From: Hysterium pulicare CBS 123377
Taxonomy: Eukaryota > Ascomycota > Dothideomycetes > Hysteriales > Hysteriaceae
Length of the DNA stretch: 55,891 nt
Assembly (NCBI GenBank): GCA_000467715.1
Contig: AJFK01000925.1
Span: 1-55,891 of the forward strand
Direction of reading: 5' to 3'
Part shown: piece after piece, positions 24,718 to 55,891 of the stretch
How the letters are laid out: every line of letters starts with the position of its first letter
How positions within the stretch are numbered: position 1 is the stretch's first letter
Notes under the pieces: model-generated
What the model saw: only the letters and a program-made list of their open reading frames with translations
The model's database searches: none
What the model was told of the DNA's origin: nothing
Position numbers and translations under genes: made by a program

Positions 24718-24812
24718 AACTTAATAAAATTAAAGAAATATTACTTTTTTATTTGATAAAACTTACTATAAATAACAGAATTAACTATAACCACTACTTA
24801 ACTTTTAGTTGA
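24718..24812. repeat. AT-rich island
   Basis: About 95 bp of very A/T-rich DNA (poly-T, TTAATAAAATTAAAG-like and ACTTACTATAAATAAC-like phrases) in otherwise mixed-composition sequence. It resembles the block at 1-58 in composition. It could be a RIP-mutated transposon scrap or the boundary of an insertion. No terminal repeats seen. Confidence 0.45.
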
Positions 24813-25190
24813 GCTGTACCAGACTCTTCTTCTTACCGTATATCAGTGATCTAAAGTTTGTGAGACTTCAAGATCTCCTATCTGCAAGCCGCTGGCGGCC
24901 TTCTTCCGCACCGGGCTGATATATGTTGATCTAATACTTTGACTTTGGTAACCCAGTGTTTCGGGGGTGTCGCTGGTGTAAGGCTGGTTGTGGGACCGAT
25001 TCGTTTGGTATATGACGTTGGTGCTTTCGAAAGGTTGGTAACTTTGCACGTGCTCGTGCCTCCTATCTCGCTTAAGTAGGTAATGTTGCACTGCCTTTCG
25101 CCAAACTCCTGACTGCGCACGAAATTGCTTCCTACTTCTACGTCGACAACCTCATCTCGGCCCAGCATATGCAAGGCCACTGACGACTCG

Positions 25191-26122: not shown

Positions 26123-26819
26123 GATTTGATGAGGTGGAAATGTGGCTGTACAACCGTTGAGAATGCACAAGGGGGTGGCATAATTCGTCATTCTCGGGGA
26201 GTGGGTCTGCGCCTACCACCTACTTTACTCCCCGCCTACAAAGCCGATTTAGATTATGTACAAGGCTTAAAAGCCAGTTGCCACCCTTTAGATTATGTAG
26301 AAAGTATCATATAGAATAGATACCTTCTAGGCCTGTACAGCCAAGGGTTTTCACAGTATGGCGAATATTGACACCTGCTGTGGTTGGGCATACTAGTCGA
26401 GACAGCGATCCCCCACGGCTTCTTCTCGAATAGATTTATGGCCAGAATAAAGTTACAATGTAGGAAGAGTCTCACTTTCGTTATTTCTGGACTTCGAAAG
26501 AATACACCTTTGGGCGAAGAATTATAAGGTGTACCTACACCATATAAAATTTGGGCAAAAGGATAAGATATATACTGCGCTAGAGCCCAGAGCCTCTCTA
26601 ATCTTGCGATCGTCATCCCTCAAGTTACGATGACAACCTCTCTGCTTAGATATGTATGTACATACTCTCGAATCCTTCCTCCATATGCTCCAAGTTTTGT
26701 CGCCGCCCAATAGCTCCCTGATGTTACTCTTTGGTCCTTCTTTCTTCAAATTTTCTCGTGGCAAGCATTTGGAATTAGTACTTGGTGTGCGAGAGCCATT
26801 TTATTAACGGAAAGACATC
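26123..26819. other. No gene supported
   Basis: It contains short AGATTATGTA repeats at about 26250 and 26291 flanking a CTTAAAAGCC phrase. Minus-strand ORFs of 80 and 107 codons overlap in different frames. The 80-codon one (26522-26764) reads somewhat coding (RELLGGDKTWSIWRKDSR) and could be a 3' exon of the minus gene at 26960-27405. Confidence 0.35.
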
Positions 26820-26860: not shown

Positions 26861-26967
26861 AGGGGGGCTTGGACGCAGTGAAAAGGGGAAGTGGATGTAG
26901 TGGAAAGGGAGGGTGTATGTAGTCAAAAGGGAGGGTGGATGTAGTGCAAGGGGGGGTGGATTTAGTA
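26861..26967. repeat. G-rich minisatellite, about 22-28 bp unit, 4-5 copies
   Basis: Degenerate tandem units of the form GGATGTAGTGVAAAGGGAGGGT, each with one or two runs of four to seven G. It lies at the 3' side of the minus-strand gene remnant and is read there as a proline/threonine-rich tail. Confidence 0.75.
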
Positions 26968-30077: not shown

Positions 30078-30740
30078 AATATGGTCGCCTAGTAGTGTAT
30101 ATTTCGGAATTACACCACCACTTCAGCCCAAGAAGGAACGGATTTGAGACCTTCGTGAGACCTTCGTAGTCCCAGAAGTGAGGGATGCGTGACGGAAGAA
30201 GAGTGAGTATCAAGTACCGCGCCAGATTCCACGACACCAGGAAGCTCATCAACCGTCTGTGGGAGCAAAAACTGCCCTTGGATGGAATAAAGGGGCCCTT
30301 TAACCGCATCGGTAGTAACCCGGTAGAGACTACATGTAGAATGCGGCGAAACGACGCCGGTCAGTCTGGGTGAGGTTATCTTGAGGGCGTGTGGTAAGGA
30401 AGGACAACGAGCAGGAGCATCCAGAAGTTGAGCTGATTTGGCACCATCACCACTACACTTGTTACAAATACGTGAGCATCGTGGATATATCCGCAAGCAC
30501 CAGCGCCATTCGTCGCCATGTTTCTTCCGCAGTCTCGACTTTCGGTAGTTGCGGTATCTTCTGCCCAACCTCGGATGATAGATTACTGTGATGCTCTGGG
30601 GGAGGTCTCTGGATGTACTCCGTCCAGAATCGTTCGGTGTTCGAAAGCGCCTCTCTGAATCAACCATGAATAAGAGCTTCAAATATAATCACCACTTGCG
30701 CGTGGTCGAGTTTAATCAAACTCTTCTTCAAGGTGCCTCT
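30078..30740 (-). pseudogene. Decayed minus-strand gene, unknown family
   Basis: The best frame runs from about 30740 down to 30466: KLDHAQVVIIFEALIHG, a TGA, then REALSNTERFWTEYIQ, SEVGQKIPQLPKVETAEETW and MALVLADISTMLTYL. It then meets TAA/TAG/TGA close together. The 190-codon ORF in a neighbouring minus frame (30110-30682) is longer but basic and low in coding character. I regard it as a by-product. A hydrophobic block (LNFWMLLLVVLPY) follows in a third frame. No family recognised. Confidence 0.3.
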
Positions 30741-34187: not shown

Positions 34188-35117
34188 ATGCTTCGCCCCT
34201 CTGACTCTGCTGGCGAGTCCGGACGTGAGTTTGACCCTGACCACAAGCCCAAATCATGTGACGAGGGCAACTTCGACGAGCATTCGACACACGACACATC
34301 TGAATCGTCGGACCTGTTATCACACCCTCCCTCTGCGCCGCTTTGGAATCTCAAGCGACGCCGCGCCAACTCCGTGGCTGACTTTGACGATATTCCCCTG
34401 ATGACACATGCTCGCCTCAGGATGTCTTCCGAGGACTCTATCGAGCTGATCATGAGAGACATCCATGAGTCTTGCAAAGCTGATCCGGTCATAAGCAAAC
34501 CTCCTGACGCCGCCGTCGAGAGCCCAAACGATACAGCCCAAGCTACGACAGCCCAGGTCACGGCGCAAGAAATCGAGTCGGAACCCACATCAAGCGAGGG
34601 TGTGTCTGTCGGAGAGGTGTCTGGCGAAGAGGTGTCTGGCGAAGAGGTGTCTGGCGAAGAGGTGTCTGTCGGAGAGGCGTCTAGCAAAGATGCGTCTGGC
34701 AGAGAGGTGTCTGTCGGAGAGGCGTCTGTCGGAGAGGTGTCTGGTAGAGAGGTGTCCGCCGGAGAGGTGTCTGTCGGAAGTGCTACCCTTGCCGCCATTA
34801 TCGAAGTGTTGAATGTTCCACGGGAGGTATGTAGATCATCCCGAGACCAGCGCAACTAGTACTGACACTGGCAGCATTTGGAAGCCGCCAGAACTGAGCT
34901 TCATCGCGAGCGCGAGTGGTCCGCCAGTGAATATGAACGTCATTTGCATGTGCTCGAGAATGTTCGGTTCCTGAACGGTTTCTGGGATGAACAAGAGCCT
35001 ATCCTCTCCGATGAAGCTTCCAGTCTCCGACGCTGGAATGTGGGACATCCCGGTTTCGAACAAACTGGCCGCCGCATAATGAAACAACCATTCAGCAGGA
35101 TGCGCCCTTTGCATTAA
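34188..35117 (+). CDS. Two-exon acidic protein with in-phase 15-bp minisatellite
   Basis: Exons 34188-34826 and 34875-35117, intron 48 nt (GTATGT...TGGCAG, phase 0). The product is 293 aa. The N-terminus is acidic and hydrophilic (MLRPSDSAGESGREFD), with a basic patch LKRRRANS near residue 50. Residues about 139-197 are twelve copies of a five-residue unit, consensus E-V/A-S-V/G-G. Exon 2 is helical (HLEAARTELHREREW, VLENVRFLNGFWDEQEP). The stop TAA at 35115 may be secondary: the same frame continues past it and past one TGA at 35127 as 74 open, protein-like codons to 35351. The antisense strand gives a 270-codon ORF, which I read as a shadow of the repeat composition. No family recognised; likely disordered and nuclear by composition (inference). 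Confidence 0.58.
34602..34778 (+). repeat. Coding minisatellite, 15 bp x 11.8
   Basis: Tandem GTGTCTGTCGGAGAG-like units, all in frame. Units 2-4 are identical (GTGTCTGGCGAAGAG), showing recent local expansion, while others differ at one to five positions. Confidence 0.9.
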
Positions 35118-41975: not shown

Positions 41976-42801
41976 GAAATGATTGACAACATCTATCAAG
42001 TCATAAAGTCCCAGATATTCCGAGACTTACCAGCTGCAGGGCACACCCCCAGCGATCTCGACAGGTTTGCTGGATTTGCTTCTAATGCGATTCCGAATAC
42101 ATCATAACAGAATCCCAACACCGATCAAACACAGCGGGAAGGCTAGGAAAAGATCTGAAGCAAGGCTAACGCAAGGGCCGGCCTACCACGCGGATATAGC
42201 TTCAGGCAAGCTCCTCTTTGTGAGTCCCGCTCTAGCTTCATTTTTCACTTCCATCGTCAGTTCAAACCCCCGGCATCTCCTCAACGCCGCCGTCGCGGTC
42301 GCCATGTTCGAGCCACTCGCAGGCTTGGACCACACTGCCTACCATAATTACCCATCGTTCAAGCTTGGAATCAGTTCAAGGCTGAAGTAATACCATGGGA
42401 GAATGGGCTCGCTATCTACGGTTGTTAGGGAAACTCACGAGATCCTCTGACTCCTTTCACCTAAAAGTGCTGCAAAACCGCTAGTTGTACGTACTTGACG
42501 CCATTGAAAACCGGGCCCACTCTACATGAAGAGATTTGTAACGACCGGCTCGTGGCCCAAATTCAGGGCTTGCACGCCTTCGAAAGTGCTGGTAAACTTA
42601 TCGTGCACATTAAGGATGTTAATTAGCAAAGCTGAAACTGAAGTTGTCGCGGACCTTGGATCACGAGCCAAGAAACACAAACTCGATGAATCGAACCGCG
42701 AAGCGGATATTCAAGAGTTGTACATGCAACGGTTTGGTACCACCACCCGGCGACCTTGCATGCGGCGTGCGCACACCGCAGACTCGCATGACATACGTTA
42801 A
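41976..42801 (+). pseudogene. Decayed gene of unknown family
   Basis: Successive plus-strand blocks read well: GHTPSDLDRFAGFASNAIP (about 42045-42105), then TAA, TAG and TGA. Next come MGEWARYLRLLGKLTR and LYVLDAIENRAHST (42395-42525), LVAQIQGLHAFESAGKLIVH (42550-42610) and KAETEVVADLGSRAKKHKLD, then NREADIQELYMQRFG (42625-42745). They occupy different frames. No splice signals account for the changes, so I infer indels and point mutations. The helical, charged 3' block is the best preserved. Confidence 0.35.
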
Positions 42802-43172
42802 GCAGCCCAACAGGGCGGCCCCCAATCGGACCTGTGCTTATCTTCAATGGACCGGCAAGCAAACATTATCCTTTCGGAAATCTCGCTATCTAATTCGTCT
42901 TGTTGCCTCGCGGATGAGATGCGACATCCTAGTCGCAACACTCTGCAATGCTGAGCGTTCCTTCAACGGCACAGCTTTGAGGGAACCCGGATCGCCATAT
43001 CTGTAGGGTGGTCAGAAGTTCCGGCTTCTCGAGGTTCAGCGGTTAGTAGTTTCCAATTACGTTTAACAAGTTCCCCTTTCGCATCATCATCTTGGCGGAG
43101 TGGCCTCTGATGGGTCTTTTCATTCATCTACAGGATCGTGATTCCTAGCAGGTCGCTCACAGGTTTCAGACT

Positions 43173-44326
43173 ATGTATGGAGCGTACGGAACGGATCTTT
43201 CCCAATTGATCACTCTCGGTCCTACAAAGCTCTCGATCCTCCTCTTTTATCGCCGAATCTTTGGCAGTGAAAGTGATTCAACTCAGTCTCCACGAGTCTT
43301 ATTGTTCTCGTCGTCGTGTGGACTATCACATTTTTCGTTACGAACACGATTCAGTACTGGCTAGTTAGCACTCCGTGGCCGCAAAACCCGGCAGAAATGA
43401 GACCCCACATGGAACTCACCCGAATGTTTTTGAGCCAGTCATATGCCGACGTGGCCTTTGACATGGTCCTCATTTCCGTCCCAATTCCCCTGAGTATATC
43501 CCTCAAGAATAGGAGATAAGTATCAAGAGCTGACGTTCTCCAGTCTGGAAACTTCAAATGGACTTTCGGAAGCTGCATTTTCCTTTTAGGGGCGTTGTGA
43601 GTACGCAGGACTAAAGATTACAACGCACTCCAGCTCATTTGCCATAGAACAACTGCTGCAAGTATTACCAGAACCGTAACTCAATACGGTGTCGCCAAAG
43701 AGTGTACGTTTTGCATTTCTGCTTTGAACTAGTCATGTATCACAACTATTTTCGGAAGTCTTCGTGCAATCAATAGACATAACCCAGACACAATATGTGA
43801 AGCCCTCAATCTGAAGCGGCGACCAGAGTATGCTGACCTCTGGCAAGATCGGCTCTGTCGTACCATCTACTGGCCTTTAATCGAGTCGGCCTTAGGTATT
43901 GTCGGGGCATGTCTGCCCTTGCTTCGCCCGATCGGCTACATTTACTCCGTGAAATACGTCTTTTTTGCCGCGAACACGGCTCTTTCTACTGCCTTTACGA
44001 AAACCACTCGAAGTTTCGGGCACGCGAGCCGTGGACATTCAAGCGAAAGCGTCCCATGCACTGATGTTCCCTCCGGAGTGGCAGACTCATCTAAAAGCGA
44101 TAAATGATTTGCACCTTACCATATCTCGTGAGTGGCGCGTGGAATTCTTGAAGTGCGGAGACTGATCCGAGGCAGTGCACTGGAGGAGACGATCGATCAT
44201 GAAAGCCAGGTTGAGGCTTTGCCGGTAGCCGAAATTCGCAAGAGGAAGAAAGGTTCGGAGGCTGCCATTATAGTTCAAAGAACATACGAGATTAATCATG
44301 GGCCTGCGGGGGCAAGACAATGGTGA
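43173..44326 (+). pseudogene. Fungal rhodopsin-domain (PTH11/SAT4-like) membrane protein, frame-broken
   Basis: Segments match the fungal rhodopsin-like family (PF20684 type) in order: LGPTKLSILLFYRRIFGS; in the next frame WTITFFVTNTIQYW and MVLISVPIPL; after an intron (43494-43543) WKLQMDFRKL; in another frame IFLLGAL; after an intron (43597-43647) AASITRTVTQYGVAKE; then WPLIESALGIVGACLPLLRPI. Such proteins have seven helices; the N-terminal helices are not found here. There are frame changes near 43270 and 43575, the latter inside a conserved segment, and in-frame TGA at 44105 and 44129. Past these the same frame runs on for 65 codons to an IIVQRTYEINHG-like C-terminus, typical of the family's tail. 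It lies on the same strand as, and upstream of, the methyltransferase. Confidence 0.65.
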
Positions 44327-44874
44327 GAAACGTTAATCTGCGATGCTAATTTTGGTCTCTGAAACGTGCAGAGAAGAGAAGCAGCAATGGGAACGGATGG
44401 TGCCGGCTGTCAGGTAGAAGAGGTGAAGGGAGTACGTGCCCGTGGTTCTATTTTCGTTTTCTGAGGAGTCCATTCCTTTAGTCCCAGAGCCGGATTCGCG
44501 GGGGTTCTGAGCTACACATTGACTTGTAGAGATGACATGTGCAAAGTATAGATTGAGAGCAATATGAGTATGAAGTTGACTGAGTGCATACGGGCTCTAA
44601 TCTCCGCTAGGTTAGGGTTCATTTTTGCGAGATGACTACTGGGTAACAATTCCTAGAACTCAATAAGTCGAGGGTCTTATAATAGCCGTACATTGTACGG
44701 GATTCTGGACTGGTATGTGAATTGGGGCGTGTTTTAGATCCCTTACCAAATTGGGTCTAGCGGAGCAGAGTGCGTGCTTTTTAATAAACGTAGATGGCCC
44801 AGTCTTCAAACTCCTGCCCCGACTTTCCCTTCATTTCGTCACGTTCCACACGAGCTACCACCGGTTCTTTTGAA
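44327..44874 (+). promoter_or_regulatory. Upstream region of the O-methyltransferase gene
   Basis: It contains TTATAATAG at about 44676 as a TATA-like element. An upstream in-frame ATG at 44794 would add 27 residues to the methyltransferase. No other ORF. Confidence 0.35.
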
Positions 44875-46385
44875 ATGGCTTCTACAAACCGAATCACCGA
44901 GCTCTCATCCGCGATCGAAAAGAACACGGTCACAGTCAATGACATTCTTGTGAAGAATAAACTGCCCACTCCTTCACTGAACGTGGACGCGCCCTGGTCT
45001 ATCCCCATAGCTGATGATGCCGAGCGTGTCCAAGCAGCATGCGTGGCCGTAATCGAGAATTGTTTGGAGCTACAAGCACTAATGACTGGCCCAAAGCAAC
45101 TGTTGAAGGCCAACGTAAGTTTCTATGAGCTCTCATGTTGGCCTACTTCCACTGACCAAAAACACAGTGGGCCCCGTGGGTTAGTGTGAAAGCAATCCTG
45201 CGCTTTAAACTTGACAGATCGTTTCCTGTGGGAGATTCTACCACATTTGAAGATATGTCAGAATTCTCGCGCCTCAATGTGAAGATCGTTCGGCGGATTG
45301 TCAGACATGCAATCATCAACCACCACTTTTTCCAAGAGAATACGCCAGGCCGTATCACGCACTCTGCCCTGACAGCCGTCCTCGCGGGTGACGACCTCAC
45401 GCGCAATTCGCTTGTTGTCGAGCTGGATGAGTTTTATCCGGCAGACATGAAGGTATGTAACGCCATTTCAGGAGCGGATAGACTGCGTTGACATAAGCAG
45501 ATGGCCGATGCAATGGAGAAATGGCCCAATTCCGAAGAAAACAACGAAACAGTAGGCACCTTCAATCAATGGTACGCGTAGATGGGCGTTTGCTAATGGC
45601 GATAGGGGTTTTCGCTTGCCAACAACAGCGATAAGAGTGTTTTCGACATTTTCGAGGAGAATCCCAACCGCGCGGAGAGATTTGGCATGTATTTCTCGAA
45701 CCCAGACGAATCGTCCGAGCACCTGCTGGAAAACTACCCGTGGCAAACCAAGAAAACTGTGGTGGATGTTGGAGGAGCGCATGGTAGTGTCGCCATTGCA
45801 ATCGCTAAACGGTTCCCTCACATGAAGTGCTTCGTACAAGATTTGGGCGATACCGTCGCCAAGGGAGCTTCCCGACTGCCACCAGAGCTTCAAGGCAGGG
45901 TCGAATTCATGACACAGTAAGATTTCACACCATCCAAAATAGACTCTTCTCTAACTCTAGATGCTGCAGCGACTTCTTCACAGAGCAGCCTGTCCGCGCA
46001 GACGTATACTACTTCCGCTCCATTTTCCACAACTGGGCGGATAAATACTGCATCAAGATTCTCGAAAACCTTGTGCCCGCGTTAAAACCAGGCGCTCGAA
46101 TTATCATTCATGAACGGATCCTCCCGGGCCTCGACACTCTGTCCACAGTGGACGCTCGAACAGCCATGTAAGTCCAAACCAATCGGTGTGGTTGCTCTGA
46201 AACCTAACGCTGATTGGATCAGCAGTATGGACGTTGGGATGGAACAGCTCTTGAATGCCCAGCAACGTGAAACGAACGAATGGCCTGAGCTCTTTCGCCG
46301 GGCGGATTCAAGGTTTCGCTACTTGGGTGCCCGTCAGCCTGCAGGCGCTATGCGGCGGATCATCGAGGCTGAATGGCACGGATAA
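44875..46385 (+). CDS. SAM-dependent O-methyltransferase, six exons, intact
   Basis: Exons 44875-45114, 45168-45452, 45501-45551, 45606-45916, 45970-46167 and 46226-46385; all introns are GT-AG, 48-58 nt. The product is 414 aa, the usual size for fungal O-methyltransferases (Pfam Methyltransf_2 type). An ATG at 44794 would give 441 aa, but MASTNRITELSSAIEKN fits the usual family start. The N-terminal dimerisation part contains LPTPSLNVDAPWSIP. The SAM-binding motif I is VVDVGGAHGSVAIAIA. The FHNW segment carries the predicted catalytic histidine, followed by the usual LVPALKPGARIIIHERILP. Such enzymes methylate hydroxyls of polyketide or aromatic metabolites in the cytosol; the substrate here is unknown. 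It is co-directional with the UstYa-like gene 328 bp downstream. It is the only fully open gene in this block. If the exon-6 acceptor is taken at 46222, one residue is added. Confidence 0.9.
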
Positions 46386-46712
46386 GGTGGTGATGGACAA
46401 GGACCACGGGGATAAAATCCCTGCTTGGGGTTCTTCGGTATACCATGCACTCGAGTTCGTGCACAAACATAATACAAACAAGTTGTCGTGTGAAAGGAAG
46501 TACCAAAAAATCAGTAGCCTTGTTTGTGGCCCCCCTTGTTCGTATCGTCTTTTGTTGATCTAACACCTCTGACCATTGAGATTGGATGACCTATGCTGTG
46601 CAACTTGCCAGCTTGCTTCTGGTTCTGCCGTCGACTGGATCCCGTCACTTGAACTTCAACGCCAGGTCCAACCTTCTTCCAGCCTCTTTCGAATCTTTGC
46701 TGCTTCAACACT

Positions 46713-47665
46713 ATGCCGCTCGACTACTCATACGGTCCGATCAATTAGCAAGAAAATAATCATGACTCCGGTCCCCGCGCTCCAATTACCACACATCGGG
46801 CTTTGATATTCTTTGTAACCAGCGGTGCTCGTGTCTTTCTATCGTTCCTCGCGGGGTCATTATTATACCCTGTGTCTCTTCCTTTGCAGATTCACTTAGG
46901 CTATGCACATTACTCACATGGCAAAAATGGCCCTTCGAGCTTTTGTACCAGAATGTGAGCATATCTACGTTCGTAATGCTCTCCGATGAAAACCTGACTC
47001 GATCAGCTCACTGCTTTTTCGAAGTCTCCACCGAAACGAAGACATTCGAATTCAACAAGACGTTCACGAATGATCCGAGTCAAGAGGTTGCGGCGGCATG
47101 GGTGTCGTTGATACCAAGTGAGATGTCCATGTCCACGGGGCGCTGGGACGATACAGAGATGGCGAAGCTAACATGTTCCAGAGGGCCAAGGAGCAATCAG
47201 CATCCCCGTTCCTAACGAATTCGACAGCGAGGTATATACCATCGGCATCTTTCACGCATTACATTGCCTCGTATGTCGCTCTCTTCCATCTCTGTGCTTG
47301 CCTGCTTCATAACTCTTTACCACATTCACCCATCGCGGTGCGCACACACTTCTAAGCTCTTCTACAGTACACCCTCCGACCAATTTTTCTTCGCGATTCA
47401 TCACATGGCCCCCACTTCTATCGTCCGTAGCGCGGATCAATTAGCATACATGCTGAAGCATGGCCGCCATTGCATCGAATACATTAGGCAGTCTCTGATG
47501 TGCAACCCAGATCTCAACTTGGAGCCCGTCGAAATGGCGAAGGGAGAGGCGAAGGAGTGGGATGAGCGGCAGTGTGTGGATTTCGAAGAAGTGAGGAGCT
47601 TGGCAGCGGAGAGAAGGCACAGCCTATCCCGAGGACGCGCGCCTTCGAAGCCTTGGCACGTTTAA
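46713..47665 (+). pseudogene. UstYa-like (DUF3328) oxidase gene, interrupted
   Basis: The ATG at 46713 begins MPLDYSYGPIN and meets TAG at 46746 (codon 12). The same frame then encodes a transmembrane-like helix (VFLSFLAGSLLYPVSL), as expected for this type II membrane family. Later exons carry the family core: TETKTFEFNKTFTNDPSQEV-AAAW, an intron 47118-47181, GQGAISIPVPNEF, YTIGIFHALHC (first HxxHC motif), an intron from 47271, then HGRHCIEYIRQSLMC (second HxxHC) and a WDERQCVDFEEV end. An intron at 46955-47006 fits. The last exon is out of frame with the preceding one as I join them, suggesting an indel or an unseen intron. UstYa proteins catalyse oxidation and cyclisation in ustiloxin-type RiPP and related pathways. 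This copy looks non-functional from its own start. Confidence 0.75.
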
Positions 47666-47906
47666 GCCGAGTCTAGGATTACCGTTTGTGAGGCTGGACA
47701 ACCTGCTGCGTCAGACGGATCTACCAGACGGTCGAATACGATTGGGTATACCATGTAAGATGGAAGGCGAGATCTCATCACGACGCTCTTCAGTCGTGCT
47801 GTTCCAATAAACGGAGCACCTCGTCCATCAACCCATTCTCACGCAAATGATCACATCTTTCCTCGGGTGGTGCCGTTCCCCGCCGAAAGAGCCTGCCGGG
47901 TAAGCG
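47666..47906. other. Spacer
   Basis: No ORF with support between the UstYa-like remnant and the next gene; a short minus ORF only. Confidence 0.5.
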
Positions 47907-49093
47907 ATGGAGCGACCACCTTCTCTCCATGAACCAGGACATCCTGAAAGCCCATGATTTGAGATACGCAGCCATGATGGTAGATGCGCAACTACCGTGT
48001 GCGGAAGACCAGCAGTGTGGTGCCAGTCAAAGGATGGGATCTGCCCACGGTGTTACGGGTATAACAGCGACAAGACTCTCTATACCGCCTTCGAAACTCC
48101 ACCGCATGTGGGAATCGTGGGTAATTCTAGCCTGGCGATAATCTCGCTGGGCAACCATGCGCAAAATGTCAAATGGCCAAACTCATGCATGTCATTCGGC
48201 TCCCGGCCCTCGAAAAGCTGGATATGTTAGTGGATTCCGACTGCCTCATAGAAATCGACGCTTTCTCCCCATGAGAAAAAGCTGGTACTTGACCCTATTG
48301 ACGGTGAGCCACAGCCGCCACTCCGCCCGTCCGTGCCTTCAATACCAGTGCCTCCCGAAGCCTCCTCTCAAGCGGCGCAACCGTTTACCTCTTCGTCAAT
48401 GGATGGCCTCCCTGCTCGAGCCGAGTCCACACAACACACCCGGTTCTGGTATAAATACTGGGGCAGTTGGTACGAGGCAAATTGCAGAGTACAGATGTTT
48501 CACGATCACTACGTTTTAGAATTTCCCAAAGGTAACAACGCGCTTGAGCACGACTACATCGTATGAGGAGTTACACGTTTATAACAGGTTTAATAAAGTT
48601 AGAGACGTGCCTGAGATGCATCTCGTACCGCCATCGCAAGAAGCTCAGCAATGACCCCATCTCGCCTTTCCTGCCCAGTTGCCAGTGGGAGCTGACCCTC
48701 CGGCATGGATTGAACCGACTGGCAGCTCTCCAATTCACGCTTCCTCAGCCAGCCCTGGTAATACGAAAAAAGATCCCCTATACAAATATCACTCCCATAC
48801 CTTCCTACATTCGGCGCCAACACAACCTCTACAGACTAGAGCTAAGCCTCGCTGATATCCTAAGAATTGCAGGCTGATTGTTCTCCGTGGACTGGTGATT
48901 GCTGGGACTGGTTAAGGATCCTCTCGAACGGCGGATTGGAAACCCGAAGCTACTCTTAGGACTATTCGCGGAGTCTTTGCGACAGGCAGAGGAAGAGAGC
49001 GGTGGTCAGGGAACCATGCCAACTGAGACGGTAGCTACCGGAAGTGACATTGTCATCGCTCTCACAGATGATGTTCAGTCTTTAGGTTACTAA
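47907..49093 (+). pseudogene. Unrecognised two-exon gene with five in-frame stops
   Basis: From the ATG at 47907 a single frame runs 625 bp with only three stops (TGA 47955, TAG 48228, TAG 48249). It then reaches a donor GTAACA; the intron 48532-48587 (ending ATAACAG) joins in phase 1 to a second frame that runs to TAA 49091 with two stops (TGA 48875 and 48896). About 20 stops would be expected by chance. The N-terminal part has a cysteine array (CATTVCGRPAVWCQ, GICPRCYG) that could bind zinc. The middle reads RFWYKYWGSWYEANCRVQ and DHYVLEFPKG; exon 2 reads IKLETCLRCISYRHRKK, SCQWELTLRHGLNRL and LELSLADILRIAG. It has no match that I can name. It continues the plus-strand series after the UstYa-like gene. 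Confidence 0.5.
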
Positions 49094-49440
49094 ATTAGTG
49101 AGCAGCGAAGGTACTATAAACCTTCCTCGCACAGGATCTTCCGCCCTTAAAAGGGAAGCAACTTCAACTGGATCTCGAATGGTCGACCTCCATCCACTCT
49201 CTACTCTTTTTCATCGATTAAACCCTGCTTCGATTCGAATCCTTCGTTGTTTGGCCACGCTTCATAGTTGTGGTGGTCAGAAAAATGCTTTCTAGGCAAG
49301 GCACGGCCAACGCCGTCTTTCTCGACTTCTGCCGAGCTTAATAATTGAGTAGACACTTTACCCGGCAGAATTACCGCCTTGTTGAAAGCCCAATAAGTAT
49401 TAGAGCACAAGTTGGTTGGCTCTAAGTTTCACCGCGGCAA
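49094..49440. other. Spacer, nothing seen
   Basis: Short antisense ORF pairs only. Confidence 0.5.
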
Positions 49441-50001
49441 TAGCAACTTCAAGGGTTGGGTACGCACCACGACACTATTGCATACTTGCGTCTTGCGGAA
49501 ACTTGGCTTGAGAAATGTTCTCTTCTCAGCACCATCTTAATCATGCCGTGCCATCCCTCCAGAGTTGCTCCAACCTGGATAACCACACACATACCGTCGT
49601 ACCGCCATGATGGCTCTGGAATTCTCGTTGGTGAGCGGCAGGACCACACAGCGCGGAGTTTTCAAGGCCACGTCCGTCCCCTTGTTTCCCGCTAACTACC
49701 TCCACAATCGTTGACTTGCGCCTTGAGGTTCAAGAATGTGGAGCAGCTCCTTTCAGCTGCTCAAGCCGCTTACCAAGACCATGACGGAACTCCTTATGAA
49801 GGCACTGCACAGGATAATCCGGCCTGTAGACATTGTTTTGAGCCATTGAAGGACCTAAAATGGCCAGTCCACTATAATGCGGCACGACCGCTATACATAG
49901 GCGCGGCGTCAGAGTCATCGTATAACGCTAAGCCGACTATGTTCCTATCAAAGCTGTTGTCTCCTGCAGAAACTTTCATGCTTGGTGTGGGCGTTCCGTA
50001 G
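49441..50001 (+). pseudogene. Decayed ORF of unknown family
   Basis: One frame is open from 49456 to a TAA at 49693 (TIAYLRLAETWLEKCSLLS) and, after it, to 50001 (LRFKNVEQLLSAAQAAYQDH, CRHCFEPLKDLKWPVHY), with one stop in about 180 codons. A TAG precedes it near 49441. It lies just upstream of the helicase fragment on the same strand and could be its 5' remains, but I see no helicase motif in it. Confidence 0.33.
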
Positions 50002-50302: not shown

Positions 50303-50893
50303 ATTGATGAAACATGGACGGCTTCATATAATGATTCTCCACCACGAAAAATAAGAGGATTTCAAGACCTCCCTCAGCCCCGTGGGAGACGATTCAAGAT
50401 CAGCCTAGCAATAGCTCTCCCCACTGGAGTCCATTCTAAGAGGATGTCAACCCTGGGTTCATGTTTAGGAAAGATGAGATATCGGGCGAGGTTTGCTACT
50501 ATACTCCCGGGAAAGATAGCGGTGTTTATACAGAGCAAGGACATGGTCAAGAAACTCGGGTGCCCCTCCTTCCACAGTGAAAGACCAAAGCTTGCTCTAG
50601 ATGCATTTCGACAGAGCATTATCAGCATCCTGTTGGCGACAAGGTATTTTTCCCACGGAGTCCACATCCCCGCCATTCGTCTAGTGCTGCACTTTGGCAA
50701 ACCCGATATGATCAAGAATCCGGGCGTGCCGGAACGAATAACAAACCAAGCAGGGCGATCACCCATTGATGGTGGGCTGTCGCCAGAAAGTGTTGGACAA
50801 GCTCTGGACAATGACGATTCCTGGAAGAGGACGAGCAGGCATGTGATGCATATCAAGAAGGCGTCTATGCACCAGCAAATAGTCGAGCCATGA
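50303..50893 (+). pseudogene. RecQ-type DNA helicase, C-terminal core fragment
   Basis: The open frame runs for 197 codons after a TAG at 50300; upstream the same frame has several stops. Residues align by eye with the second RecA-like domain of RecQ-family helicases: PGKIAVFIQSKDMVKKLGCP, FHSERP, LDAFRQSIISILLATRYFSH then GVHIPAIRLVLHFGKPD (motif V region), then a stretch ending NQAGRSPIDGG where the family has Q-x-x-GRAGRDG (motif VI). The second arginine of motif VI is missing, and there is no N-terminal ATPase domain in frame here. RecQ-like helicase copies of this kind are often repeated and partly decayed in filamentous fungi, some near telomeres. The antisense 184-codon ORF (50374-50928) is a shadow. 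Confidence 0.6.
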
Positions 50894-52015: not shown

Positions 52016-52600
52016 ATCCGATGACGAAGAGCTACGTATGCATCAACATGTGTTCGGTAGTAACTGGCAGAGCAAATTCGGTTTCTCGGAAGACGTTGTT
52101 GCACCATTGCAGCGTGTCGTCGGGTAGGTAGAAATGGTTTTCCTTATCAGGATTAGCAAGAAACGGTGAGATCAGAGAGATCAAAGACTTTCCAGCGCCG
52201 TTCGTCAAAGAACATGGAAGCTTTAGTGTCGGCCGCCCGTCTCTTCTGTGGTCTGAAAATGTGACTATTGGTTTGCCATGCACCAAGTTCGGCATAGCAA
52301 GGCAGGCACAAGCTCACAAGCCCACGAGCGAACACAACGACTGCATCGGAATTCTCTCTCGCAAATCTTCACCTCGTGTCGTAGTTCCTCCCCTCCCGGA
52401 AGCCTGCCTGTTCTCAGGCGAGTTCTGAATGCGCATTGGCTACCGTCTCTGTCTCCTTGTCATGTGGCTGTACACCCTACGAAGAGCATTGACGCCACAC
52501 TGAGACGAAGGCGCGAGCGCGAGTCTCTACCAAGGAACGGTCTGAATATGAGACTCTCCATACTCTTACTCGACGTTTGACGGCGCTCTCTTCGCCATCT
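52016..52600 (+). pseudogene. Coding debris, possibly helicase-related
   Basis: The plus frame at 52018-52128 reads SDDEELRMHQHVFGSNW, then GFSEDVVAPLQRVVG and TAG, a layout seen before the first helicase motif in some RecQ-like proteins, but no ATPase motif follows in any frame. A later block (52500-52620) reads TKARARVSTKERSEYETLHT. On the minus strand an NGAGKSLI phrase (about 52195-52175) looks like a P-loop fragment but lacks the first glycine and context. Confidence 0.22.
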
Positions 52601-54846: not shown

Positions 54847-55186
54847 GGCGAAGGCGACTAGAAGAGCGTCCACAACTGTCAAGCGCGATGTTTGTCAAGA
54901 ATAAAGAGGAGGAGTGACACAAGCCTCATAGTATTGGGTCAGGGTGTTGAAAAGCGGCAGTCCGTGCATAAAGAACCGGGTTTGTGTCTTATGCTGCCTG
55001 GATCTGGATGTTTCGGAGTGGTTCTAGTAGTTTGCTTGTCTTTGCTTTTCACGGTCAGTTTCTACCTTATTGACTCCATATAATTACCCTCTCCACTGCA
55101 AGAAAGACTCACCACGCCGATCCAGGAACACCATCCACTTCGGTTCAATACCCTCAAGTTTTTATTGAGCACTTCTTGGACCAGCT
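54847..55186 (+). promoter_or_regulatory. Upstream region of the repeat-protein gene
   Basis: It includes a short ORF without ATG (54892-55083) whose end is hydrophobic (CFGVVLVVCLSLLFTVSFYL). This may be chance or an upstream exon. 55080-55180 is a C-rich leader before the ATG at 55187. Confidence 0.35.
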
Positions 55187-55891
55187 ATGGATCAGCAGCC
55201 CGCAAAGAACCACGCTGGAACTCAGCTTTCCGACCCAGATATTGAGAATGATACGCTTACGGTCGATCAGCGTGGACAACCGGATGTCGAGCATCATGCG
55301 TCCACGGTGCCGCAGCTTACCGAACCAGATGTTGATCATGATACAGTGACCGTGGCTCAGAGTACACAACCAAACGTTGAGCATGATACAGTGACCGTGG
55401 CTCAGCGTACACAACCAGATGTTGCGCATGATACATTGACCGTGGCTCAGCGTACACAACCAAACGTTGAGCATGATACGTCCACGGCAGGCGAGATACA
55501 GCCATCTCGAGAGGAGAATCAATCGAAATCATCCGATGGCGAAGGCTCTAAGCCGGCAGAAGAGGGGGAGAAAGAGGAGAAAGAAGAGAAAGAGGAGAAA
55601 GAGGAGAAAGAGGGGGAGAAGAAGGAGAAAGAGCCCTCATTCATCCAGGACTTTATGGATTGTGGCCTTCCTTCGTTGCAGTTACCTATTAAGAACGGCC
55701 AATTTCGAGACCCCATGATATTTCGCAAGTACGATCGGCTCCAGAAAGAGCGCGCCGCTCAAGCAGCTGGAAGAGAACGTAGGCCGGAGGAAGAGGGGGA
55801 GAAAAAGGAGGAAGAGGGGGAGAAAAAGGAGAAAAAGCCCTCATTCATGCAGGACTTTATCGATTGTGGCCTTCCTTCGTTGCAGTTACCT
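55187..55891 (+). CDS. Repetitive acidic/lysine-rich protein, partial (runs off window)
   Basis: The open frame of 235 codons from the ATG at 55187 (MDQQPAKNHAGT) reaches the window end with no stop. Residues 13-102 are six tandem 15-residue units of the type Q-R-T-Q-P-D-V-E-H-D-T-V-T-V-A. Next comes a hydrophilic linker, then a glutamate/lysine tract (EEGEKEEKEEKEEK). A motif PSFIQDFMDCGLPSLQLP (55634-55687) follows, then KNGQFRDPMIFRKYDRLQKE and a second E/K tract, and the motif recurs at 55838-55891 with two changes, exactly at the window edge. So a 68-residue (204-bp) unit is also repeated. There is no signal peptide or membrane helix in the visible part. The antisense ORFs with repeated WLCTLSHG are shadows. 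Function unknown. Confidence 0.7.
   Translation, partial: MDQQPAKNHAGTQLSDPDIENDTLTVDQRGQPDVEHHASTVPQLTEPDVDHDTVTVAQSTQPNVEHDTVTVAQRTQPDVAHDTLTVAQRTQPNVEHDTSTAGEIQPSREENQSKSSDGEGSKPAEEGEKEEKEEKEEKEEKEGEKKEKEPSFIQDFMDCGLPSLQLPIKNGQFRDPMIFRKYDRLQKERAAQAAGRERRPEEEGEKKEEEGEKKEKKPSFMQDFIDCGLPSLQLP
55223..55492 (+). repeat. Coding tandem repeat, 45 bp x 6
   Basis: Six in-frame 15-codon units. Units 4-6 are nearly identical in DNA (GACCGTGGCTCAG...ACACAACCA), while units 1-3 are more diverged, pointing to recent expansion at the 3' side. Confidence 0.9.
55634..55891 (+). repeat. Second coding repeat, 204-bp period, at least 1.25 copies
   Basis: The 54-bp block 55634-55687 recurs at 55838-55891 with two amino-acid changes (I to M and M to I). 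E/K-coding tracts precede both copies. More copies may lie beyond the window. Confidence 0.85.

Follow-up and report, generated by a model that had tools for sequence, protein, structure and literature searches.

An intact O-methyltransferase gene in a probably decaying secondary-metabolite-type neighbourhood of Hysterium pulicare

The window analysed here is one whole contig, AJFK01000925.1 (C553), of Hysterium pulicare CBS 123377. It spans 55,891 bases and belongs to an assembly of 37.2 Mb in 596 contigs. Its introns and gene families by themselves would suggest a filamentous fungus, probably an ascomycete. Between about 43149 and 47662 it carries, in series on the plus strand, a rhodopsin-like gene (PF20684), an O-methyltransferase gene (PF00891) and a UstYa-like gene (PF11807, also known as DUF3328). 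The sequence-only reading had placed four plus-strand genes here; three of them stand, and the fourth is a mosaic of fragments. We consider it likely that 43149-47662 is a decaying neighbourhood of the secondary-metabolite type in which three families are represented and the methyltransferase survives, and that the supposed fourth gene is patchwork. The coordinates of all features are collected in Table 1.

The rhodopsin-like gene is broken in this assembly. Three pieces match PF20684: the frame at 43149 covers profile positions 58-94 (E 4.7e-5, 23.5 bits), the frame at 43277 positions 93-165 (E 3.1e-4, 20.8 bits) and the frame at 43733 positions 210-234 (E 3e-3, 17.6 bits). Each piece alone falls under the 27-bit cut-off, and no continuous domain over that cut-off was found. 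The first two pieces overlap at about 43283-43289 in different frames. Because this switch of frame leaves no space for an intron, the gene must be regarded as broken. The N-terminal part of the domain, profile 1-57, was not found upstream, where the frame 42623-43003 was put to Pfam and the remaining frames were inspected by eye. These results agree with the earlier suggestion that the gene is disrupted.

The O-methyltransferase gene is intact, and the six clean exons read from the letters alone were borne out by an open model, a full domain and five introns of 48-55 nt that all have GT-AG ends. The stop codon closes the frame at 46385. A start at codon 28 (44875) appears likelier than that at 44794 and matches by eye the start of the paralogue on contig C420. 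The product scores 97.6 bits against Methyltransf_2 (curated cut-off 22.3) over profile positions 51-207 of 210, and 95 sequences of the Protein Data Bank (PDB) match it at E of 0.001 or less, with 7bqj at the top (6.1e-34). Its best non-self matches in the genome, ranked by E-value, are two sequences on C299 followed by one on C552. The S-adenosylmethionine (SAM)-binding motif DVGG and the catalytic motif H(N/D)W are present as VDVGGAHG and FHNWADKYC, both aligned with those of the paralogues. To quantify conservation, we used a query-anchored alignment of residues 215-386 with eight paralogues and took the columns with at least seven sequences; L047 and L052 were aligned but excluded. At positions invariant in all others, the C553 protein showed no unique departure (0 of 22), whereas each of the eight paralogues showed 1-5 of 23-26. 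This comparison indicates that the protein is conserved at least as well as its relatives. The paralogues are about 29-47% identical, so silent sites would be saturated and unsuited to the ratio of nonsynonymous to synonymous change (dN/dS). Judged from its sequence, the gene most likely continues to encode a functional enzyme.

The UstYa-like gene is preserved in pieces. The first recognisable coding piece has no UstYa Pfam match of its own and was assigned from its position and by eye. The piece with the first HxxHC motif, HALHC, scores 12.1 bits (E 0.18) alone against PF11807. The piece with the second motif, HGRHC, scores 47.5 bits (cut-off 25) over the C-terminal profile positions 155-217 of 220 only, and a search of the genome for its own UstYa family matched 47429-47605 at 43.1 bits. 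Both motifs are present in different frames, and they can be joined solely by a splice choice that omits the LR element of the paralogues. In at least 12 of 29 paralogous UstYa loci scanned by eye, the frame diverges with a V codon straight after the first motif. This V codon would represent a GT donor, and an intron seems to lie there in many paralogues; GTATGT occupies the donor position after HALHC in the C553 locus. In eight paralogues that read on, R is the fifth residue past the C of the motif (LDMVR, LNSLR, LKFLR and others). The LR element of the C553 locus (about 47368-47379) and HGRHC do not share a frame: one acceptor gives LYTLR, but a stop then interrupts the frame ahead of the second motif. 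There are UstYa relatives whose two motifs share a single open frame, for example on C552. Because the second motif and the LR element occupy different frames, the UstYa-like gene has probably, not certainly, lost its reading frame and is dead.

An N-terminal transmembrane anchor is typical of the UstYa family. Four models of the N-terminus, each with no more than one intron, all lacked an anchor, which is a weak result as the control missed the anchor in 4 of 10 paralogues. That control found 6 of 10 anchors when the anchor was set 60 residues before the motif and 5 of 10 at 75 residues, and the same search returned a membrane segment in 4 of 200 shuffles. A hydrophobic stretch at 46749-46955 lies in another frame and has no start codon.

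The two-exon fourth gene proposed earlier did not hold up. Pfam searches with seven stop-free pieces from 47595-49090 brought no match over a cut-off; one piece weakly matched DUF7053 (11.4 bits, E 0.28) and one a monooxygenase (13.8 bits, E 0.074). As there is no Pfam match and DNA fragments match the contigs C305, C256 and C384, the stretch is best read as a patchwork of decayed duplicated DNA and not as a gene. The C384 match falls at the 5' end of an open DUF7053 gene (266 bits), of which the copy in the window lacks the start codon and 161 bp. Retroposition of this fragment was rejected, as the absent 161 bp do not form a GT-AG intron. DNA searches of the region returned short matches only, in one search all at 48.6 kb and beyond, together with C419 at 52.3 kb. 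They found no second copy of the locus in the genome, and such a lack of match is no proof of rarity.

Table 1. Coordinates of the features recognised in the window
Feature	Position	Strand	Basis
Rhodopsin-like (PF20684) pseudogene	43149..44104 (pieces 43149-43361, 43277-43516, 43733-44104)	+	Pfam matches
O-methyltransferase, intact	44794..46385 (exons 44794-45114, 45168-45452, 45501-45551, 45606-45916, 45970-46167, 46223-46385)	+	Gene model, 1329 nt including stop, no internal stop
UstYa-like relic, first recognisable coding piece (FEFNKTFTNDPSQEVAAAWVSLIP)	46976..47117	+	First in-frame Met 46976; frame open from 46766
UstYa-like relic, first HxxHC motif (HALHC)	47172..47270	+	PF11807 profile 116-137, weak
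UstYa-like relic, second HxxHC motif (HGRHC) and C-terminal part	47357..47662	+	PF11807
Mosaic of fragments	48393..49900	no strand	DNA comparison, short matches of 70-89% identity
Mosaic pieces matching C305	48393-48446, 49552-49654, 49756-49900		
Mosaic pieces matching C256	48499-48593, 48606-48654, 48897-48963		
Mosaic pieces matching C384	48689-48758, 48761-48821		5' end of DUF7053 gene
Dispersed short fragments	24718-24832, 26172-26345, 26871-26967, 30657-30734, 52281-52395		DNA match to other contigs

The association of the three families was quantified across the genome. Profile searches gave 43 matches for UstYa, 29 for Methyltransf_2 and 159 for fungal rhodopsin, of which a part is listed (150 of 220 candidates scored). 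A kinase control comprised 133 listed matches in 114 loci (121 of 244 candidates scored). To define loci, listed matches lying close together were joined (distance 900 nt in general, 1300 nt for kinases), and C553 was left out of all counts. Expected counts assume even placement, and neighbouring loci on one contig were counted separately, which makes the tail probabilities too small; the contrast is large in spite of this. Among the matches listed, a rhodopsin locus lies no more than 10 kb from at least 16 of 30 UstYa loci (2.04 expected) and from at least 9 of 26 methyltransferase loci (1.77 expected). A methyltransferase lies within 10 kb of 7 of 30 UstYa loci (0.42 expected). Kinases, again among the matches listed, lie within the same distance of 0 of 30 UstYa loci (1.78 expected), 1 of 26 methyltransferase loci (1.55) and 2 of 131 rhodopsin loci (7.79). 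Since the kinase figures are below those of even placement, placement in this genome is uneven. The biosynthetic families appear to lie in other parts of the genome than the kinases. Some of the excess of UstYa-rhodopsin pairs may come from such sharing of regions and not from tight clustering. None of the 30 UstYa loci has a ketosynthase (0.56 expected) or a tyrosinase (0.22 expected) within 10 kb. These zeros give no association, yet they are unsurprising at such low expectations. The earlier proposal that methyltransferase and UstYa families co-occur in peptide or polyketide clusters is thus upheld for the co-occurrence of the families and not for the cluster types, of which the tyrosinase and ketosynthase counts give no trace.

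On C299, C420 and C552, rhodopsin, UstYa and methyltransferase genes occur together within 10 kb; on C37 they do so within 15 kb. These neighbourhoods share the three families with the C553 locus; those on C552 and C299 hold more UstYa or methyltransferase copies. A P450 piece lies near the C299 group, and near that of C420 an FAD-enzyme-like piece whose matches all fall under the cut-offs. The idea of a relic metabolic neighbourhood is therefore retained for the three genes whose families recur in this way, without the fourth.

The rhodopsin domain has partners other than UstYa. Of 35 ketosynthase loci, at least 12 lie within 10 kb of a rhodopsin locus among the matches listed (2.38 expected). 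Its presence near both UstYa and ketosynthase loci suggests that PF20684 proteins belong generally to fungal biosynthetic clusters. A more specific thought, which we hold only tentatively, is that rhodopsin-domain proteins are regular partners of UstYa, for example in membrane positioning or product carriage, and that this pair decayed jointly on C553 while the soluble methyltransferase was kept and reused. In the open-access literature, searched by title and the start of the abstract with subscription journals and preprints outside the search, no treatment of the UstYa-rhodopsin pairing was found. Open-access searches likewise returned no cluster of UstYa, rhodopsin and O-methyltransferase and no fungal rhodopsin domain in a biosynthetic gene cluster, and no link of DUF3328 with 'integral membrane protein' was found in the accessible portions of open-access texts containing both terms. 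PF20684 membrane proteins are poorly understood, and their association with UstYa is a more useful lead than the decay of the cluster.

Then, what history could have produced the arrangement on C553? In the history we favour, an ancestral cluster would have combined a PF20684 membrane protein, a SAM-dependent O-methyltransferase of PF00891 and a UstYa oxidase of PF11807, and its product may have been a modified small molecule or peptide. The rhodopsin-like gene is dead, and the UstYa-like gene most likely lost its frame while keeping both HxxHC motifs. The methyltransferase would have been retained by selection as a catalytically active enzyme, whose most likely target is a hydroxyl group on a small molecule from another pathway. 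Decay of this sort is ordinary, and neighbourhoods of this kind recur in the same genome. Cluster decay that leaves one tailoring enzyme is a plausible route by which fungi shuffle their chemistry.

Several points weigh against decay. If splicing used a more upstream acceptor, the third UstYa exon would be open, minus the LR element, and the UstYa-like gene may be alive. The earlier claim that this gene is broken therefore stands as likely only, carried by the different frames of the motifs and the LR element. The N-terminal models were limited to at most one intron, and the control search, which finds an anchor in 6 of 10 UstYa paralogues, finds none in the other 4; given this control, our confidence in decay was lowered slightly, and it remains fairly high. 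Single-base assembly errors could imitate frame breaks. Decay from an intact ancestor would be deduced from one genome, and the constraint on the O-methyltransferase would follow from its distant paralogues rather than from dN/dS. The order and strands of the genes on C299, C420, C552 and C37 are unlike those on C553.

A rival reading is a working small metabolite cluster, the breaks in which are assembly errors or misguessed introns. The clean methyltransferase, the survival of both UstYa motifs, the third exon that an alternative acceptor would keep open and the anchor search that also fails in 4 of 10 paralogues all fit with this explanation, as does the fragmentation of the assembly into 596 contigs. 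We nevertheless regard it as unlikely. No intron can account for the frame change in the rhodopsin-like gene, which also lacks profile 1-57; a mosaic of fragments adjoins the locus, and the methyltransferase coding sequence runs for 1.3 kb without any such break.

More doubtful still is the proposal that the methyltransferase survives neutrally and is itself being lost, intact by luck or because decay is young. The decay of its neighbours and its unproven expression would suit such a fate; against it stand the 0 of 22 unique departures, where each of the eight paralogues shows 1-5, and the GT-AG ends of all five introns. That three unrelated genes of large families came to lie side by side by chance is very improbable: rhodopsin-like genes are very common, with at least 131 loci besides C553, but at other loci of the genome the family pairs are found together much more often than even placement predicts, which is not so for kinases.

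Outside these genes, the contig looks gene-poor as far as genes can be recognised, and spliced genes of short exons could escape such a view. Outside the four-gene region there are 34 stop-to-stop frames of at least 130 aa, 33 of which were put to Pfam. The single pass over a curated cut-off among them was a Helicase_C piece (PF00271) at 50303-50890 on the plus strand (25 bits, cut-off 23.5), which we guess may derive from a helicase that is mobile or associated with telomeres. The window was also scanned for tRNAs, with none found, and against Rfam, where no family reached its gathering score. Repeat-induced point mutation was considered as a cause of decay and rejected: over 42001-50000, in 2 kb steps, TA/AT was 0.56-0.87 and (CA+TG)/(AC+GT) was 1.15-1.28, with no signature at the usual index thresholds. 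The segment 34046-34856 contains a 15-nt repeat with 11.8 copies at 34602-34778; its plus frame encodes a repeated CLxxR pentapeptide, together with some dibasic sites, and its minus frame a TDTSP-like repeat. Inspection by eye showed no signal peptide. A plus-strand open frame at 55169-55891 runs off the contig end and contains 15-residue repeats (QPNVEHDTVTVAQRT-like) and a tail rich in K and E. Further dispersed fragments have 68-88% identity to C240, C552, C375, C408, C513 and C419.

Among known systems, the closest include clusters for ribosomally synthesised and post-translationally modified peptides (RiPPs). Dikaritin-type RiPP clusters, such as those for ustiloxin and phomopsin, share with it a UstYa gene with two HxxHC motifs and an adjoining methyltransferase. 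The UstYa neighbourhoods of this genome show no sign of the dikaritin (tyrosinase) or the polyketide type, and none of 26 tyrosinase matches in the genome falls on C553. When unspliced stop-to-stop frames of at least 60 aa in the window were searched for Kex2-type precursors, the only hits were two of low complexity, the CLxxR repeat (34495-34809) and a K/R-rich frame (55440-55715). In the lichen Clan R1 clusters, as far as the accessible text describes them, an O-methyltransferase is flanked by two DUF3328 genes and a tyrosinase is also described; according to the same part of that source, O-methyltransferases had never before been reported in dikaritin clusters, and dikaritin clusters without one of the enzymes exist (PMC12048977). 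The C553 locus differs in having a rhodopsin-like gene instead of a tyrosinase, and the word rhodopsin does not occur in the accessible part of PMC12048977. DUF3328 genes sit in precursor-peptide clusters of Venturia (PMC9632046) and Epichloe (PMC7317419), as stated in the available portions of those papers, so a RiPP reading of the ancestral cluster stays possible.

The methyltransferase itself can be compared with fungal Methyltransf_2 structures. The full domain is common to the C553 protein and to PDB 7bqj, HpiI (7bqo) and 8pha, and the C553 protein carries the HNWAD and DVGG motifs. In the alignments, 7bqj and HpiI, which we take to be pericyclases, carry HKEPD where the C553 protein carries HNWAD. 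By this alignment, the C553 protein retains the ordinary methyltransferase motif.

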